From Micromonospora polyrhachis (lineage in GTDB: Bacteria; Actinomycetota; Actinomycetes; Mycobacteriales; Micromonosporaceae), in contig NZ_JACHJW010000001.1 in assembly GCF_014203835.1 (NCBI RefSeq), positions 3,112,501 through 3,176,500 of the forward strand: a DNA stretch of 64,000 nt. Direction: 5' to 3'. The notes beneath the pieces were generated by a model. That model was not told where the DNA came from, did no database searches, and was given only the letters and a program-made list of their open reading frames with translations. The position numbers and the translations under genes are program-made. Position 1 is the first letter of the stretch. Each line of letters starts with the position of its first letter. Below, piece by piece: positions 412-38,229 of the stretch.

Positions 412-1851
412 CTACTTCTTCTTGCCGAGCACCCGGCGCACCGTGCTGATGCTGACGTTGACCTGTGCAGCGATCTCGGCGTCGGGAGTGTTCTTCTTGG
501 CGAGACGCTTGATCTGCGCGTCGCGCTGCTTGATGTCGCCCTCGCGGCCCCCCATGGCCACCTGGCGACCGGTGCGGCTGGCCACAGCAATGGCCACACC
601 ACCACCTGACTCGTGGCCGCCCTCAGTGGCCATCGACATGGCCACCTTGCTGGCCACAGTGGGAGCGTCTTGCGTGGCCGTCACGATGGCCAACAGATCC
701 ACATCGTCCTGGCCGCGATCCTGGCCACCGTCGTGGCCAGAGAGTTGGCCATCGAGATGGCCAGCCGCAGCGCTCGCGATGGCCACCTGCGGCGTACCGT
801 CGATGGCCGCGCATGTGGCCACCGGCTTGGCCGCCACAATGCCGACCGTCGGCGACTGGTAGAACGCGTGGGCACCCATGGCCAGTCGGTATCGGGCCCG
901 CTTCGCCTCGGCCTTGATTTCCTCCAACGCGGCACGGGTCGCGTCATCCAACTCGCCGGACGCGGGGGCAGCAGGCAGGGCAGCGGACCCACGTCGTAGC
1001 ACTCGGCCGGCTACGCGCAGCCGGCCACCGTCCAGGGCCTGAGTCCGGCGCTGCCGCTCCTTGTTGTAGCCCTCCCAAGCCTTGCGCGGGTCTCGCTCGT
1101 TGTGTTCGATCGACCACCGCTTGGCGGCCCACGTCCGGAGCGGGAAGGCTCTACGGCGCGCTGGGGAAAACTCGACGCCGGCCTCATCAATCAGGCCTTC
1201 GGCAACCAGCTGGATGTGCTGCTTCCAGCGGCTGTAGAGGCCCCAGAGCCAGGGTGATGAGACAGACAAGGTCCCGAGGATTACGGCCATGGCCGTCGGC
1301 TGCCATCCATCGCTGAAGTGGCTGTAGTTGACGGCCCCGAAGAGCAGGGCAACCCCGTACGACGCGCGGCGCAACTTTGCCGCCGTCGAGTGGGCCTTCC
1401 GTAGCAGATGCTCGTGGGCCTGCCAGCCGATGTAAAGGGAGATGCTTTCGGCGGCGGCGGCCACCCCGATGGCCACGGCAACCTTCACGGGGGCTGGCCA
1501 ATCCTCGGGGGCCTCCCCGTAGACATAGCCGATCTGCCCACCGATCGACGCGGCGTTGGACAGCAGCAGAGGGCCAGCGGTCCGGGCGAGGTGGCCAATT
1601 TTCTGGAGTTGGGCGACACGCTTTGCTCGGCGCTCGGCCTCTTCCTTCTTGCGTCGCTCCTCGGCTTCGGCCTGCTCTCGCGCTTCAGCCTTGGCGGTTT
1701 CGCGGGCGGCTTCCTCGTCTTCGCGACGCACCTTCGACAACAACCGCTCACGCTCGATGAGGGCGTTGGTCTCCGCAGCAAGGGCGGCAGCGATGGCTGC
1801 GGCGTCGGGGGCAACCACCGGAGTGCGCTGGGGGCGGCGGAACAGCTTCAT
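412..1851 (-). CDS. DUF2637-like membrane protein with C-terminal helix-turn-helix
   Basis: A 479-residue protein. Residues 1-90 are highly charged and rich in Ala/Glu/Lys/Arg, likely coiled coil. Four hydrophobic segments follow (about 92-113, 122-143, 163-178 and 185-209), the arrangement of the DUF2637 family, which is found mainly on actinomycete plasmids and integrative elements. Residues about 340-430 are low-complexity (repeated VA, GH and GQ pairs) and are encoded by the 12-bp TGGCC array. Residues about 445-479 (PDAEIAAQVNVSISTVRRVL) form a convincing helix-turn-helix. Seen: membrane anchor plus DNA-binding tail. Inferred: a membrane-tethered protein of plasmid or conjugative maintenance, possibly binding the repeats inside its own gene. 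The domain call is from memory of the family. Confidence 0.8.
   Translation of the reverse strand: MKLFRRPQRTPVVAPDAAAIAAALAAETNALIERERLLSKVRREDEEAARETAKAEAREQAEAEERRKKEEAERRAKRVAQLQKIGHLARTAGPLLLSNAASIGGQIGYVYGEAPEDWPAPVKVAVAIGVAAAAESISLYIGWQAHEHLLRKAHSTAAKLRRASYGVALLFGAVNYSHFSDGWQPTAMAVILGTLSVSSPWLWGLYSRWKQHIQLVAEGLIDEAGVEFSPARRRAFPLRTWAAKRWSIEHNERDPRKAWEGYNKERQRRTQALDGGRLRVAGRVLRRGSAALPAAPASGELDDATRAALEEIKAEAKRARYRLAMGAHAFYQSPTVGIVAAKPVATCAAIDGTPQVAIASAAAGHLDGQLSGHDGGQDRGQDDVDLLAIVTATQDAPTVASKVAMSMATEGGHESGGGVAIAVASRTGRQVAMGGREGDIKQRDAQIKRLAKKNTPDAEIAAQVNVSISTVRRVLGKKK
555..833. repeat. 12-bp periodic array of TGGCC(A/G) sites inside the DUF2637-like gene
   Basis: TGGCCA starts at 555, 579, 591, 627, 639, 651, 687, 722, 734, 746, 758, 780 and 816, and TGGCCG starts at 614, 675, 710, 804 and 828. 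One further TGGCCA lies outside at 879. Nearly all steps are 12 or 24 bp, with a few of 22, 23 or 13. The off-by-one steps move the motif into another reading frame (VA codons versus GH/GQ codons) while the DNA spacing is kept. Because the frame is not conserved and the motif is, the selected unit appears to be the DNA. Candidate roles are iterons, a conjugal transfer (clt-like) locus, or binding sites for the helix-turn-helix of the same protein. Confidence 0.85.
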
Positions 1852-2234: not shown

Positions 2235-2337
2235 CAGTCGCACCCTTACCACCTCCGCGATCAAGCCTTGATCGCGCAACGATGATCCGTAAGGGTGGAT
2301 GTGTCCGCTGGTGTCTGCAGACGGGGGGCGGACGATC

Positions 2338-3438
2338 GTGAGCTTCGGCAACGCGCTGAAAGATCTACGTTCTTCGCATGGCCTCTCACTCCGGGCGCTG
2401 GCCCAACGCGCCCACTACTCCCGCAGCTACCTCCACGAGCTGGAGACCGGTCGCAAGCCGCCCACCCACGATGTCGCCGAGCGGCTCGACCGCGTGCTCG
2501 ACGCCGGTGGCCGGCTCGTCGCCCACCTGTCCGCCCCGATCCAGCGCCTGCCGGACTGGGCCGATGAGCGGGTGGGCGCAGTGAGCACCGGACGGTGCCG
2601 GCCCGACCCCACCGTCGTCGATCAACTCGGCCAGGCGCTCGCGGTGCAGCGCTCACTGGAGGATTCAGTCGGCGCGCGGGCGGTGCTGCTCCCGGTGCTC
2701 GGGCAGATCTCCACCGTCCAGGCCGTCCGCGGCAACGCGGACGGGCCACTGCATGACGAGCTGTTGTCGCTGGAGTCGCAGTACGCCCAGTTCGCCGGCT
2801 GGCTCTACCAGGACCAGGCCGACCGGTCAGCAATGGCCCAGTGGTACGCCCGCGCCCTCAGCCAGGCCACCGAGGCCTGCGACCCGTCCATGGTGGCGTC
2901 CATCCTGTCGATGCGGTCCAACGCCGCCTGGTCCGCCGGTGACCACCGCCGGGCGGTCACGCTGGCCGAGGCATCCTGCCGCCAGCCGGCCACCCCCGGC
3001 ACCCTCGCCCTGTCCCAACAGCAGTTGGCCCGCGGCCTGGCCGCCGCCGGGGAGCGAGACGCCAGCCTGCGGGCACTCGACGAGGCCGAGCACCTACTCG
3101 ACCAGGCCCGGCGACAGCCCGACCGCGAGCCGGCGTGGATCTACTTCCACGACCCGGTGCGCCTGCAGATGCAGCGGGCGTTGTGCCTGCGCGAGGCCGG
3201 CGACCACCAAGCCGCCATCGGCCTGGTCGAGGCGGGACTACGCGACCTGCCCGCGTCGTACACCCGCGACCGGGGCTCCTACCTGGCCCGGCTCGCCGTC
3301 ACCTACGCCCTCTCCGGGGAGCGTGACGGGGCCCGCGCAACTGCCGCCCAGGCGCGCGTGCTCGCGGAGGCGACCGGGTCGACGAGGACGCTGGCCGAGA
3401 TCGCGCTGGCAGTGCGACTCGCCGATCCGGTCGCTTGA
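2338..3438 (+). CDS. XRE-family transcriptional regulator with TPR-like C-terminal region
   Basis: About 366 residues from GTG 2338; an upstream in-frame start at 2299 is possible, but 2338 has a purine-rich site (GGGGGGCGGA) in front and places the helix-turn-helix at the N-terminus. Residues about 5-58 (LRALAQRAHYSRSYLHELETG) are a clear Cro/C1-type helix-turn-helix. The remaining 300 residues are Ala/Leu-rich paired helices resembling tetratricopeptide repeats, as in many actinobacterial XRE regulators that respond to a peptide or partner protein. It follows the excisionase-like gene in the same direction at 104 bp and is likely the regulator of the integrated element. Its ligand and targets are unknown. 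Confidence 0.85.
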   Translation: MSFGNALKDLRSSHGLSLRALAQRAHYSRSYLHELETGRKPPTHDVAERLDRVLDAGGRLVAHLSAPIQRLPDWADERVGAVSTGRCRPDPTVVDQLGQALAVQRSLEDSVGARAVLLPVLGQISTVQAVRGNADGPLHDELLSLESQYAQFAGWLYQDQADRSAMAQWYARALSQATEACDPSMVASILSMRSNAAWSAGDHRRAVTLAEASCRQPATPGTLALSQQQLARGLAAAGERDASLRALDEAEHLLDQARRQPDREPAWIYFHDPVRLQMQRALCLREAGDHQAAIGLVEAGLRDLPASYTRDRGSYLARLAVTYALSGERDGARATAAQARVLAEATGSTRTLAEIALAVRLADPVA

Positions 3439-4167: not shown

Positions 4168-4213
4168 GCCCGGCAACTGCGGGATGACGTGCGATTATGG
4201 AGATCGCAGGTAA

Positions 4214-4301
4214 GCGGAGGGTGTGGGATTCGAACCCACGAAGAGGTTGCCCCCTTACCGGTTTTCAAGACCAGCGCCATCGGCCACTAGGCGAACCCTC
4301 C
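4214..4301 (-). tRNA. tRNA-Ser (anticodon UGA)
   Basis: On the minus strand the sequence folds as a class II tRNA. The acceptor strands are GGAGGGT and ACCCTCC, with discriminator G. The anticodon loop CTTGAAA gives anticodon TGA, a long variable arm surrounds GGGGGCAACCTC, and the T arm contains GGTTCGAATCC. The CCA end is not encoded. The 3' end faces the integrated element at lower coordinates, the usual arrangement when a tyrosine recombinase uses the 3' half of a tRNA gene as its attachment site. No second copy of the tRNA 3' end was seen in this window, so the other boundary lies outside. Confidence 0.95.
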
Positions 4302-9047: not shown

Positions 9048-11183
9048 ATGCCGGCTGCATGGTCCCCGCTCGTGGTGGCACCCGTAATCGCCTTCTTCGC
9101 GATCATGTATGCCTTCCGTCCAGCGCCGAAGAGCGTTGGTCAGCCGGTACGCCTGTCGGTGGTCCGAGCGGCGTTGGTCACTGGCGCGTACGCGGTGCTG
9201 ACCGTCGAGTTGCTCGGCGCGTACGGCTGGTTGACCGCGCCCGCGATCGCGGCGGTCTGGCTGCTCTTCCTGCTGGTCGCGCTGGCCTTGGCGGTCTGGC
9301 GGTGGCGCCGCTCGGCCGCATCATCGGACCAACCCCGGTCGATATTGCGGGACGCGCGCCGCGCCGCATCGAGCGGCTGGGAGACCATCCGGGCCGAGGG
9401 GTGGCGGCAGGCCAGCCTGGCCGAGCGGCTGATGATCTGTGTCATCGCTTTCCTGGTACTGGCCGAACTGGTCATCGCCCTGCTCGCCGAACCGAACAAC
9501 TTCGACTCGCAGACCTACCACCTGCCGAAGGTCGAGCACTGGGTGCAGCAGGGCAGCCTGGAGATGTGGGCGACCGCCATCCACCGGCAGGTGAGCATCC
9601 CGCCCGGCGCCGAATATCTGTTGCTGCACCTACGCCTGTTGACCGGTGGCGACACCCTCTACAACCTGGCGCAGTGGGCGGCGGCGATCGGCTGTCTGGT
9701 GGTCGCGACGCGGATCGCCGCGCAACTCGGCGGGGGCCGGCGGGCCCAGGTCATCACCGCCTTCCTGGTGGCGACGACGCCGATGGTGGCGCTTCAGGCG
9801 ACAAGTACGCAGACCGACCTGGTGGCCGCCGCCTGGGCCGGTTGCGCAGCGACCCTGGTGCTGGACAACCTGTCCCGGCGGGCCACCATCGGCGCGGTGC
9901 TCGCGCTCGGCACCGCCACCGGGCTGACGGCCGTCACCAAGACCAGCGGGCTGATCGGGGTCGGTCCGATGCTGGTCGTGTGGGGGGTCGCCCAACTCCG
10001 GCAAATCTTCCGGCCAGCGCCATCCGCAGACCGTGCGGCCGCCACGTCCGGTACGGGGCGGGTACGGGCGGTGTTGGGCATCGGTGGCGTCTCCATCGCC
10101 ATCCTGGCCGTCGCCGCAATGATCACCGGGCCGTACCTGGTGCGGATGACCGTCGAGTTCGGCAATCCGCTCGGGCCGCCCCGGCTGCGCGAGTCGATCC
10201 CGACCACCCGACACGACCCGCCCGCTGTCCTGGTCAACGGGCTGCGGATCGGGCACACCGCGTTGGACACCCCGCTGAGTCCGCTGCGAGACGTCACCGC
10301 GTCCGTCATCAAGCAGGTGGCGGAGCTGGTCGGCGTCGACCCGCAGGATCCGGGCATCACCTTCGGCAAGACCACGTTCCCGGTGCGGTCCTGGTATCCC
10401 GACGAGGACCGGGTCGCGTTCCCCCTCGTCGGGGCGCTCGTCCTGATCGGCGGGGTACTGGCGCTGGCGCGTCCACAACGGATCTCACCGGAGCGCGCCG
10501 GCACGCTGCGTGCGTACGCAGTCGCGATCGGGGTCACCGTGGTCCTGCACAGCGCGATGATCAAGTGGCAGCCCTGGGGAAATCGGCTGGTGCTGTACGC
10601 GTTGCTGCTGGCCGTACCGCTGGCCGGGGTGTGGCTGGACGCGATGTTCCGGCGTCGGTCCAGCAACCAAGCAGAGGACGCTGGCCGAGCAGAGGACGCT
10701 GGCCGAGGTGGTCGGCGTTCGGTGGCAACCCTGGCGGCGGTGGCCGTACTCGCCACCTCCGCACTTTCCGGGGTGCTCGCCATCTCGTACGGCTTCCCCC
10801 GCCGACTGGTCGGTACGGGGTCGCTATTCACGACCTCCGACTGGGAGACCCGGTTCCTGCGTCGTCCGCAGTGGGCGGAGGAGTTCCGGTGGGCGGCCCA
10901 GGAGGTCGAGGCCGCTGGTGCCCGGCGGATCGGCCTGGTGCAGCAGAACGACAACTGGGAGTACCCCTGGTGGTTGCTGCTGCGCTCTGGCGACAGTGAC
11001 TCGGATCGGGAGATCGTGGCGCTGCAGTCGGTGCTGGACGGCCGACCGCCAGCTGATCCGCGCACTGTGGACGCGATTGTGTGTACCGGTGACCGGAAGG
11101 CGTGCACCAGGTTGGTGCCGCCCGGTTGGCGGGTCGAGTTCCGCGGTTACGTGGGCTACGCCCTGCCACCGCACACTCCCTGA
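9048..11183 (+). CDS. multi-pass GT-C type glycosyltransferase-like membrane protein
   Basis: About 711 residues from ATG 9048. It has roughly ten or more hydrophobic segments; the first two start at residues 5 and 33. After a long first cytoplasmic stretch comes EPNNFDSQTYHLPKVEHW around residue 165, the acidic loop motif that in GT-C/ArnT/PMT enzymes binds the lipid-phosphate sugar donor. A final non-membrane domain of about 130 residues (VEAAGARRIGLVQQNDNWEY) ends the protein. It likely transfers a sugar from a polyprenyl phosphate donor outside the membrane. An 18-bp tandem duplication gives AEDAGRAEDAGR at about residues 541-552. The acceptor is unknown. Confidence 0.8.
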   Translation: MPAAWSPLVVAPVIAFFAIMYAFRPAPKSVGQPVRLSVVRAALVTGAYAVLTVELLGAYGWLTAPAIAAVWLLFLLVALALAVWRWRRSAASSDQPRSILRDARRAASSGWETIRAEGWRQASLAERLMICVIAFLVLAELVIALLAEPNNFDSQTYHLPKVEHWVQQGSLEMWATAIHRQVSIPPGAEYLLLHLRLLTGGDTLYNLAQWAAAIGCLVVATRIAAQLGGGRRAQVITAFLVATTPMVALQATSTQTDLVAAAWAGCAATLVLDNLSRRATIGAVLALGTATGLTAVTKTSGLIGVGPMLVVWGVAQLRQIFRPAPSADRAAATSGTGRVRAVLGIGGVSIAILAVAAMITGPYLVRMTVEFGNPLGPPRLRESIPTTRHDPPAVLVNGLRIGHTALDTPLSPLRDVTASVIKQVAELVGVDPQDPGITFGKTTFPVRSWYPDEDRVAFPLVGALVLIGGVLALARPQRISPERAGTLRAYAVAIGVTVVLHSAMIKWQPWGNRLVLYALLLAVPLAGVWLDAMFRRRSSNQAEDAGRAEDAGRGGRRSVATLAAVAVLATSALSGVLAISYGFPRRLVGTGSLFTTSDWETRFLRRPQWAEEFRWAAQEVEAAGARRIGLVQQNDNWEYPWWLLLRSGDSDSDREIVALQSVLDGRPPADPRTVDAIVCTGDRKACTRLVPPGWRVEFRGYVGYALPPHTP

Positions 11184-36040: not shown

Positions 36041-38229
36041 CCAGCAACCCGCCCGAGGCGACCGGTTCGACGCCCGAACCGCCGGCTCCGCCTGCGGCCG
36101 ACCCGTCCCCAGCCGCACCGATAGAGCAGCCCGAGCAGACAATGCCCGAGCAGGCAGAGCAGCCTGCACCGGCAAAGCCTGAGCGGGCGGAACCCAAGCC
36201 CGCAGCGGCTGCGGCGGCACCGGACAGGCCTGGGCCGACATCGCCCGCCACCACGCAACCGCCTGCGCCAGCAGCGATCGGGGCGCAACCGATCCGGCCG
36301 CCAGCCGGGTCGCCAGGCGTACGGATGGCACCGCCGCCTCCACCGCCACCGGCGAGCTACTGGAATCCGCCCCGGCCACTGTTCACACCTATCCAGCCGT
36401 CACCGATGTACCGACGCTGGCCAGGGCCAGCGAGCGGGATCCATCGGCCGGTGCTCGGAGCGGTCGCCGCAGCAGCGGCGATCGGTGCGGTGAGCATCCC
36501 CCTGACCCGGCCCGGTGTCGGCTGGCTGGTTGGCGTCGTCGCCGGCACGGCGGCGCTGACCACCGCTGCGGTGATCGGTTGGTCCCGGAACGATGTCCGG
36601 CCCGACGGCACGGGGGTGCCGGGCCAGACCGGAACGGACCAGTCCCAGCCAAAACAGCAACCGGCACCCAGCCCGGCGACACCTCAACAACGGCCAGCAC
36701 CACGGCCGTCAGCAGCGAACCAGCAACCGGCACCCAGCCCGGCGACACCTCAACAACGGCCAGCACCACGGCCGTCAGCAGCGAACCAGCAACCGGCACC
36801 CAGCCCGGCGACACCTCAACAACGGCCAGCACCACGGCCGTCAGCAGCGAACCAGCAACCGGCACCCAGCCCGGCGACACCTCAACAACGGCCAGCACCA
36901 CGGCCGTCAGCAGCGGCCCCGGTCGAGCCGGTGGCACGTCGTACCCGGATCGGCCTGGACCGGCTGATCTGGGCGGCGGCTACCGTGGCCCTGATCGGAG
37001 TCGGCACGGTACGGGCAGCCGGCTGGCTCTTCGTACTCTGTGTCCTGACCGCCGGGGTGACCGCGTGCCTGGCGGTGACCGGCGGGCGTTCCCTGGGCGG
37101 GATACTGTACGCGGCCCGACTGCCGGTCGTGGCGGTGTTCCGGGCGATGCCCTGGACGGCGCGCGGCATGAACCGTAGCGGCCCACGGACCGGCGGCTAC
37201 TCCGTCGGGCGGCTCCTCGCCACCGTGGCCGTCTCGGTCGGCCTGCTTGGCGTCTTCGGGGCCCTGTTCGCCTCGGCCGACGCCGCCTTCGCCGACCTCC
37301 TCGGCGGGCTGTTGCCCACTCTCTCCGTGGGCGACGTCGTCCGCTGGTCCTTCCTCTTCCCGATCCTGCTCATCGGGCTGCTCGGGGCGGCCCACCTGCT
37401 CACCGCCCCGCCCGACCTGACCGGCCTGGAGAACCAGCCGGCGAAGCGGGTCCGCCGGCTGGAGTGGGCACTACCGGTGGCCCTGCTCGACCTGCTCTTC
37501 GCCGCGTTCGTGCTGGTGCAGATCACCGTGCTGTTCGGCGGCTCGCGGCACGTGCTGGCCGAGGCCGGACCGACCTACGCCGAGTACGCCCGGGGCGGCT
37601 TCTGGCAACTACTGATCGTCTCCGGGCTCACCCTGCTGGTCATCGCCGGGGCCAGCCGGTGGGCACCTCGGGACAGCCGGGCCGATCGGATCGTGCTGCG
37701 CCTGCTGCTCGGGGTGCTCGCCCTGCTCAGCCTGGTCATCGTGGCCTCCGCGCTCTACCGCATGAACGTCTACACCCAGGCGTACGGCGCGACCCGGCTG
37801 CGGCTGCTGGTGGCCGCCTGCGAGCTGTGGCTCGGCGTGATCTTCGTGCTCGTCCTGCTGGCCGGCATCCGGCTGCGCGCCACCTGGTTGCCCCGGCTCG
37901 TGCTGGGTGCGGCGGTGCTGGCCCTCCTCGGGCTCGCCGCGCTCAACCCGGACCGGTTCATCGCCGAGCAGAACATCGACCGGTACGAACGGACCGACCG
38001 TCTCGACGTGAACTACCTGTCCCAGCTCTCCGCCGACGCCGCGCCCGCGTTCAACCGCCTGCCGGACGAGAAGCGCGCCTGCGCTCTCCGTGCCATCGCC
38101 GACGAACTGGCGGCTGAGCAGCATGACTGGCGCGCGGCGAACATCGGTCGGAGCCGGGCCCGGCAGCTGATCGCGACCAACCCAGTCGACTACAACCCCG
38201 CCAGGTGTCTCACGATCTATCCCCGTTGA
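36037..38229 (+). CDS. DUF4153/DUF4173-type multi-pass membrane protein with Pro-rich repeats
   Basis: About 730 residues from TTG 36037, chosen for GGAGG at 36028-36032 and the overlap with the kinase stop. Residues 1-120 are Pro/Ala-rich and disordered. Two hydrophobic helices follow (about 140-180), then four perfect 22-residue repeats (QQPAPSPATPQQRPAPRPSA per unit). About ten further membrane helices contain FGALFASADAAFADLL and ALYRMNVYTQAYGATRLRL, typical of the DUF4153 family. Function unknown. Co-transcription with a two-component system suggests it is its effector or sensor partner. Confidence 0.85.
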   Translation: MTSNPPEATGSTPEPPAPPAADPSPAAPIEQPEQTMPEQAEQPAPAKPERAEPKPAAAAAAPDRPGPTSPATTQPPAPAAIGAQPIRPPAGSPGVRMAPPPPPPPASYWNPPRPLFTPIQPSPMYRRWPGPASGIHRPVLGAVAAAAAIGAVSIPLTRPGVGWLVGVVAGTAALTTAAVIGWSRNDVRPDGTGVPGQTGTDQSQPKQQPAPSPATPQQRPAPRPSAANQQPAPSPATPQQRPAPRPSAANQQPAPSPATPQQRPAPRPSAANQQPAPSPATPQQRPAPRPSAAAPVEPVARRTRIGLDRLIWAAATVALIGVGTVRAAGWLFVLCVLTAGVTACLAVTGGRSLGGILYAARLPVVAVFRAMPWTARGMNRSGPRTGGYSVGRLLATVAVSVGLLGVFGALFASADAAFADLLGGLLPTLSVGDVVRWSFLFPILLIGLLGAAHLLTAPPDLTGLENQPAKRVRRLEWALPVALLDLLFAAFVLVQITVLFGGSRHVLAEAGPTYAEYARGGFWQLLIVSGLTLLVIAGASRWAPRDSRADRIVLRLLLGVLALLSLVIVASALYRMNVYTQAYGATRLRLLVAACELWLGVIFVLVLLAGIRLRATWLPRLVLGAAVLALLGLAALNPDRFIAEQNIDRYERTDRLDVNYLSQLSADAAPAFNRLPDEKRACALRAIADELAAEQHDWRAANIGRSRARQLIATNPVDYNPARCLTIYPR
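36655..36915 (+). repeat. four 66-bp tandem repeats, in frame
   Basis: Units begin with CAGCAACCGGCACCCAGCCC at 36655, 36721, 36787 and 36853; the last ends early at about 36915. The first three are identical base for base, which points to very recent expansion, and each encodes 22 residues. Copy number is probably variable among strains. Confidence 0.95.

Follow-up and report, generated by a model that had tools for sequence, protein, structure and literature searches.

A 12-bp-pitch repeat array inside a prophage gene of Micromonospora polyrhachis, with the helix-turn-helix domain of the encoded protein as candidate reader

A gene in a prophage of Micromonospora polyrhachis carries, within its own coding sequence, an array of TGGCC(A/G) sites at a 12-bp pitch. 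The array is confirmed as a real, DNA-level feature and not a by-product of the protein sequence, because codon-preserving null models never reach its density or periodicity. On balance, we lean toward the array being a cis-acting binding site for the helix-turn-helix (HTH) domain of the protein encoded by the same gene, which would tether the DNA of the element to the membrane. The window analyzed is a stretch of 64,000 nucleotides (contig NZ_JACHJW010000001.1, positions 3,112,501 to 3,176,500), and coordinates below refer to it unless a locus is named; the host genome is a single 7.15-Mb contig.

Sequence and periodicity of the array

The window contains 18 TGGCC(A/G) sites at 555-833 (279 bp, no strand assigned), 13 of which are TGGCCA; our recount returned the same numbers as the initial annotation. 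The sites start at 555, 579, 591, 614, 627, 639, 651, 675, 687, 710, 722, 734, 746, 758, 780, 804, 816 and 828, and their 17 steps measure 12 bp (ten), 24 bp (three), 23 bp (two), 13 bp (one) and 22 bp (one). The steps had been described as almost all 12 or 24 bp, with occasional steps of 11 or 13 bp. Exact 12- or 24-bp steps do make up 13 of the 17, and one step is 13 bp, but an 11-bp step is absent. A further TGGCCA lies at 879, and with this site added 16 of 18 steps are at most 1 bp off a multiple of 12. Thirteen of these 19 sites fall in one reading frame (VA/LA/TA/AA/MA-type peptides) and six in another (GH/GQ-type), which agrees with the earlier statement that the motif continues across reading frames.

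Three null models were run with 5,000 copies each: codons shuffled gene-wide, codons shuffled inside the array region only, and codons drawn according to the usage of five further ORFs in the window. None of the three models gave a copy that reached the array's 19 YGGCCA, 14 TGGCCA or 16 periodic steps (0 of 5,000 each). Shuffling of codons leaves an average of about 5 to 8 sites per copy, as would suit an array that arose from amino-acid repeats or codon bias. We nevertheless regard the chance of such a by-product as practically negligible: its density and periodicity were never reached, two frames are used, and relatives show other words at an equal pitch. The initial annotation, which had named codon shuffling as a control, was therefore correct in holding that protein-level selection does not explain the array.

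Three TGGCCR at a 12-bp pitch match ten times in the 7.15-Mb chromosome, and eight of these matches are inside the window array (the reversed control pattern matches three times). The 43.6-kb element described below contains 34 TGGCCA, with 17 of them within the array gene. Tandem Repeats Finder reported only 734-764 of the window array. A reading of TGGCCA as a restriction site was rejected because the words of most relatives are not palindromes. Elsewhere in the window, at 36655-36915, a 66-bp tandem repeat is present in four copies that match at 100%.

Protein encoded by the array gene

The array gene (412-1851, minus strand) encodes a 479-aa protein with a predicted long N-terminal helix, hydrophobic core, disordered linker and C-terminal HTH. 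In the AlphaFold2 model the N-terminal helix is accompanied by more long helices up to residue 217, disorder is predicted at residues 332-434 (550-858, minus strand, pLDDT below 50), and residues 434-476 (424-552, minus strand) form a three-helix HTH, the candidate array reader. The pTM of the full model is 0.34, and the relative placement of the domains is therefore meaningless. The 18 array sites serve as codons for residues 340-433, within the predicted disordered linker.

The core (residues about 91-217, encoded at 1201-1581 on the minus strand) is conserved among relatives, and its helices were read as membrane helices. In the window protein, residues 124-142 form the single core segment with a hydropathy above 1.6 (1.76), followed by residues 187-205 (1.38). 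The 53 related genes introduced below were scored solely for the presence or absence of such a core segment (1.6 or more), and 46 have one or more. Judged from these sequences, the hydrophobic core is probably membrane-embedded, with a weak hydropathy signal in the window protein.

The gene had initially been labeled a DUF2637 gene; Pfam gave no DUF2637 match to the 479-aa protein at E <= 0.1, which fails to support the label. All Pfam matches were weak and under their curated cut-offs, and most were to HTH models at residues 445-478 (HTH_7, HTH_23 and LacI among them). The C-terminal domain modeled alone is three-helical. A Foldseek search with this model returned mostly DNA-binding domains in its best rows, all with E >= 0.64, and fold searches with the full and C-terminal models produced no match with E <= 0.001.

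Prophage context

The array-bearing element is a prophage and not an AICE, because 26-bp att repeats enclose phage genes; an AICE reading was rejected on the same grounds. One copy of the 26-bp direct repeat, at 4212-4237 (no strand assigned), overlaps the 3' end of the tRNA-Ser(TGA) gene (4214-4301, minus strand) that serves as the integration site, and the other copy lies 43.6 kb leftward, outside the window. The prophage extends from -39364 to 4237 in window coordinates (43.6 kb, with the left part beyond the window in L003 and L002) and is of tailed-phage type. PHROGs between the att repeats include integrase, exonuclease, DNA polymerase/primase, terminase, portal, major head, tape measure and endolysin, so that integrase, packaging, head, tail and lysis genes, as expected of a temperate phage, are all present in the 43.6-kb element. 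Given these phage genes, the earlier description of an integrative-element locus does not hold as worded, but a TraB is indeed encoded.

The right part of the prophage carries, on the minus strand, the array gene, a gene for a 200-aa protein and a gene for a TraB-type translocase. The N-terminal part of the 200-aa protein (function unassigned) occupies 1-342, between the array gene and TraB, and continues past the window. TraB is the second gene downstream of the array gene on the same strand and matches the NCBIfam model plasmid_TraB (NF041214) with E 1.3e-141; at 473 bits this match is under the curated cut-off of 800. Divergent from the array gene, on the plus strand, are genes for a 105-aa protein with a weak HTH_17 match (1917-2234) and for a 379-aa HTH_31 (XRE-type) protein (2299-3438), likely a prophage regulator, which adjoins att. 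A phage carrying a conjugation motor, here a tailed-phage prophage with a TraB-type conjugative translocase, is notable in itself.

Homologs and their arrays

With the window's own genome counted, matches were found in 8 of 101 genomes of relatives, 15 of 250 and 25 of 354 at the level of the family, 7 of 298 in the order, 4 of 394 in the class and 1 of 396 in the phylum (the window's own genome); these search sets overlap, and their E-value limits differ. Further matches came from 14 loci in named genomes, 22 viral contigs and 7 more contigs. A tblastn search with the protein or its core gave no match in the plasmid collection or the phage collection.

The set tested for arrays consisted of 53 genes, the window's included, after identical or same-locus copies were dropped. 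Outside it are the distant L009, L010 and L022-L025 (none of which exceeded all shuffles), L082 and L083 (no gene parsed), and L067 and L073-L076 (loci already tested through another copy). L080, a frame-shifted copy tested outside the 53, was reached by 39 and 82 of 200 shuffles. Kept in the set are L043 and L093 (99% identical), the fragment L039, and L034, L036, L037, L063, L064 and L079 (86-95% alike in the listed pairs). None of these retained close relatives is among the positives described below.

Significant arrays (a 6- or 7-mer in the gene tail, against codon shuffles, p <= 0.005) were found in 20 of the 53 genes, where at most about 0.5 would be expected by chance. The remaining 33 genes have no significant array, and they include six close HTH-bearing relatives (L034, L036, L037, L063, L064 and L079). 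The arrays of the positives sit in the same part of the gene as the window array, and their words are nearly all different. The best words are TGGCCA, GCGGGCA, CGACCG, CGGTGA, CCGTCA, CCCGACA, CGCACCA, CGGCTCA (twice), CGACCAC, CCCGCCA, CGGCCA, CCGACC, GGCTACC, CCTCCG, CCGCCCG, CCTCCA, GACCGTC, CGTGCCA and GCACCCC. More than one reading frame is used by the sites in 17 of the 20 positive genes. Among 172 same-orientation steps pooled over the 20, the two peaks are 12 bp with 32 steps and 24 bp with 17, and 9, 15, 18, 21 and 27 bp account for 4, 4, 3, 3 and 3. The check on periodicity in homologs proposed in the initial annotation thus gave a divided answer: many relatives keep an array of 12-bp pitch, but the word changes, and more than half of the tested genes are without a significant array.

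Several genomes hold three copies of the array gene: G378 (L059, L077 and L081, with three identical proteins), G382 (L064, L078 and one more) and G326 (L072, the frame-shifted L080 and a fragment with a stop). At L029:11566-15861, a TrwC-type relaxase is encoded directly downstream of a homolog with a weak array.

Correspondence between array word and C-terminal domain

Word enrichment, measured for the word of each positive in the remaining genes of the 53, was regressed on C-terminal and core similarity. The coefficients were 0.33 for the C-terminal domain and -0.05 for the core, and the C-terminal value was reached by 0 of 2,000 label permutations (p 0.0005). When only the 20 positives were compared, p in a rank-based partial Mantel test was 0.36 for the C-terminal domain and 0.03 for the core, and a Pearson test gave p 0.002. 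Only 3 of the 20 pairs with a C-terminal similarity >= 0.3 have z >= 3. Given how few of the similar pairs reach this level and the Mantel p of 0.36, the positive evidence rests on a few well-resolved groups.

Seven genes (L040, L056, L091, L039, L059, L068 and L093) have a nearest positive that differs between C-terminus and core. The word of the C-terminal neighbor is strongly enriched in three of them (L040, L056 and L091; z 7.7 to 11.3) and weakly in L039 (2 vs 0.3 expected); neither neighbor's word is enriched in L059, L068 and L093, and the word of the core neighbor is enriched in none of the seven. L056, which by core is nearest to L041 (0.89), contains the L091 word CGGCTCA 11 times (1.2 expected) and the L041 word CGACCAC twice (0.9 expected). 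In L056, L131, L026 and L040, GGCTCA ranks first among the 6-mers of the entire tail; L091 has CGACTCA and CGGCTCA, and the recognition helices of these five are alike. L026, L056 and L131 did not pass the windowed array test (best p 0.30, 0.14 and 0.23, respectively). L092 and L072 likewise have the ANRW helix, with different words. L027 and L042 have a helix type and the word GCGGGCA in common, but their core is common too (0.91).

Aligned pairs of genes record changes of word. From L033 to L059, CCCGACA reads CCCGCCA at 4 of 5 gap-free aligned sites, and L033 already has 5 CCCGCCA. Among 20 gap-free aligned tail sites of L095 and L100, CTACC stands for CGACC at 5 and the word is unchanged at 3. 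The alignment of L103 and L107 contains a single clean word switch. L040 has a second cluster of nine CGGCTCA, identical to its in-gene word, at 10790-11140 upstream of an FtsK-like gene.

Since the word follows the C-terminal domain and not the core across the 53 genes, the best candidate for the array reader is the protein's own C-terminal HTH. The initial suggestion that the HTH could be the reader is thus supported by the full set of genes, but not by the rank-based test on the 20 positives.

Alternative functions

The TRS repeats of Streptomyces plasmids are read by the winged-helix domain of TraB. The array could in the same way be a clt locus read by TraB, with the HTH gene merely its location. 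TraB is encoded second downstream of the array gene on the same strand in the window prophage, translocase-like proteins are found in many array-bearing loci (e.g., L030, L032, L033, L040, L084, L085, L100 and L106), and clt loci are short repeats that differ between plasmids (PMC3583192). However, in the 53-gene regression the word tracks the array gene's own C-terminal domain, and translocase HMMs together with phmmer searches using 17 translocases found no TraB/FtsK-like protein in 60 kb around the genes L041 (G044) or L056 (G333). L041 has a significant array in a prophage region without detectable TraB, and the L056 array fails the windowed test. The phmmer search was added because the HMMs by themselves are not exhaustive: they overlooked an FtsK-like protein in L030 for which PHROGs and NCBIfam give weak matches. 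The phmmer search gave a match in 1 of 11 regions (L100), and ORFs of >= 250 aa with a Walker A pattern are present in three; several of the other regions are short, and the absence of a translocase there therefore says little. We conclude that TraB as reader is weakened and unlikely. An operator field for regulation or superinfection immunity, by which the protein of a lysogen captures incoming DNA with the same word or which acts as a roadblock to transcription of its own gene, is a fairly unlikely explanation. The array gene and an XRE-type regulator are neighbors near one att site of the prophage, and diversity of words is what separate immunity groups would be expected to show, but no TGGCC(A/G) occurs in the stretch ahead of the array gene (1852-1916), and the genes of L033 and L037 adjoin TraB-like/Prim-Pol genes, with no phage structural genes among the few neighbors scanned.

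A replication origin built of iterons is very unlikely. Iterons of 7-8-bp repeats do occur in Streptomyces plasmids (PMC3583192), but L034, L036, L037 and L030 have separate repeat arrays around a GCAGCTCA core, L030 has both kinds of array, and the DNA polymerase/primase gene of the window prophage lies about 30 kb from the array. No Rep or primase was found beside the window array, where the neighbors are the 200-aa protein, TraB and regulators. The iteron reading was rejected on the separate arrays in some other elements, and the replication locus raised in the initial annotation is less likely because such arrays exist elsewhere in some related elements.

L041 has integrase and tail-type genes as neighbors, and phage proteins of the window prophage recur in G044 (67% identity for the portal, 43% for the head protein). 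A search for att-like repeats in 60 kb of G044 gave none. The 60 kb around L056 in G333 contain 43-bp repeats at tRNA-Val that enclose 49.5 kb. The FtsK-like protein at L028:13860-17318 has weak matches to homing endonuclease and intein models.

The separate arrays (L034:13680-13894, L036:19554-19771, L037:19282-19493, L090 near 3011, L030:6982-7203 and L098:7198-7535) consist of 7-8-bp repeats, partly at 8-10-bp spacing, between genes or at or beyond the 3' end of a gene, and their words differ between closely related elements (GCGGAGA, GGTGACA, CTCGGCA). These arrays are probably replication origins. A Prim-Pol gene lies about 1.6 kb from that of L037, and L090, which has a similar array, contains no exact GCAGCTCA in 19 kb. 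At L106:11-319, roughly 7 kb away from the array gene, CGCTGCC is repeated 24 times in about 300 bp.

Comparison with known systems

A similar layout is known from SpdA2 of the Streptomyces plasmid pIJ101, whose sps sites are inside its own coding sequence; segregational stability fell when either the protein or the sites were lost (PMC4170104). SpdA2 is, like the candidate here, a DNA-binding protein of a mobile element with sites in its own gene, a feature common to SpdA/sps that is also found in the window gene, where binding is inferred. The sps site is, however, a conserved 12-bp palindrome in 2-3 repeats, common to many plasmids, and the protein has 135 aa (PMC4170104), whereas the protein described here is larger and probably membrane-bound, with many short linker-coded sites whose word varies between elements. 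The sps palindrome CGTCACGTGACG given in that paper has an exact match in 0 of 150 loci, and none in the window at <= 1 mismatch.

AlpA of the CGP3 prophage of Corynebacterium glutamicum is an adaptor that links phage DNA to AlpC filaments through 24 alpS repeats, and CGP3 phage DNA was seen mostly at the membrane (PMC4446434). Both cases involve an actinobacterial prophage in which an adaptor protein and DNA repeats connect phage DNA to a cellular structure. In CGP3, alpS lies in the alpAC promoter region and the partner is the actin-like AlpC, in contrast to the in-gene sites here and a protein that is itself the presumed anchor; among the prophage proteins scanned (part of the ORFs), none matched an actin-like AlpC.

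The TraB/clt systems of Streptomyces plasmids likewise have short, element-specific repeats near the TraB gene. The clt direct repeats number three (pIJ101), four (pWTY27) and nine (pJV1) in the part of PMC3583192 that describes them, as opposed to 18 in the window, and one array of the present set is in a prophage region without detectable TraB. StbA of R388 provides plasmid stability without an ATPase partner and binds short repeats, the stbDRs, which comprise two sets of five 9-bp repeats with 2-bp spacers and hence an 11-bp pitch. The stbDRs flank the operon promoter, and StbA is not described as a membrane protein in the available text (PMC3098194 for each of these points). The spread protein SpdB2 of pSVH1, an integral membrane protein, binds both TraB and DNA, but its DNA binding is described as non-specific, and no array is described in the passage that cites this work (cited in PMC4170104). 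A full-text literature search, covering mostly papers outside subscription, found no description of such an array.

Proposed mechanism and conclusions

In the mechanism that we favor, the array at 555-833 represents candidate cis-acting sites for the C-terminal HTH of the encoded protein. Several HTH copies would sit side by side on the 12-bp lattice, each protein copy would be anchored in the membrane through its hydrophobic core, and the complex would therefore keep excised or replicating prophage or conjugative-element DNA at the membrane. Such a tether may help to position the DNA, to bring it across septa (intramycelial spread) or, in elements that have TraB, to pass it on to that translocase. 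The linker, presumably free of protein constraint, would be the place where the DNA address is written, and a joint change of address and reader would let elements avoid cross-talk.

Based on anatomy and precedent, membrane tethering for positioning, spread or transfer appears to be the most likely mechanism. Several points count against it. The adjacent array and HTH codons could swap as one piece of DNA even with another reader, the Mantel test on the 20 positives is unsupportive and 33 of 53 genes are without a significant array, and the membrane core of the window protein is weak by hydropathy. A fuller version of the tether, in which the protein's own linker codons form the 12-bp site lattice and reader and address co-evolve into an element-specific membrane address, is tentative and in our estimate somewhat short of an even chance. 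A transfer or segregation role of the array, as also raised in the initial annotation, is plausible, and in the window prophage with its TraB the tether could serve cell-to-cell transfer of the phage genome by conjugation.

If the proposed mechanism is true, one coding sequence carries two messages, a flexible linker and a DNA address read by the same protein. The 20 positives would then be natural reader/address candidates, some of them one base apart, in which the evolution of binding specificity and element compatibility is directly testable. The prophages of mycelial actinomycetes would thereby have a one-protein means to position or spread their DNA.
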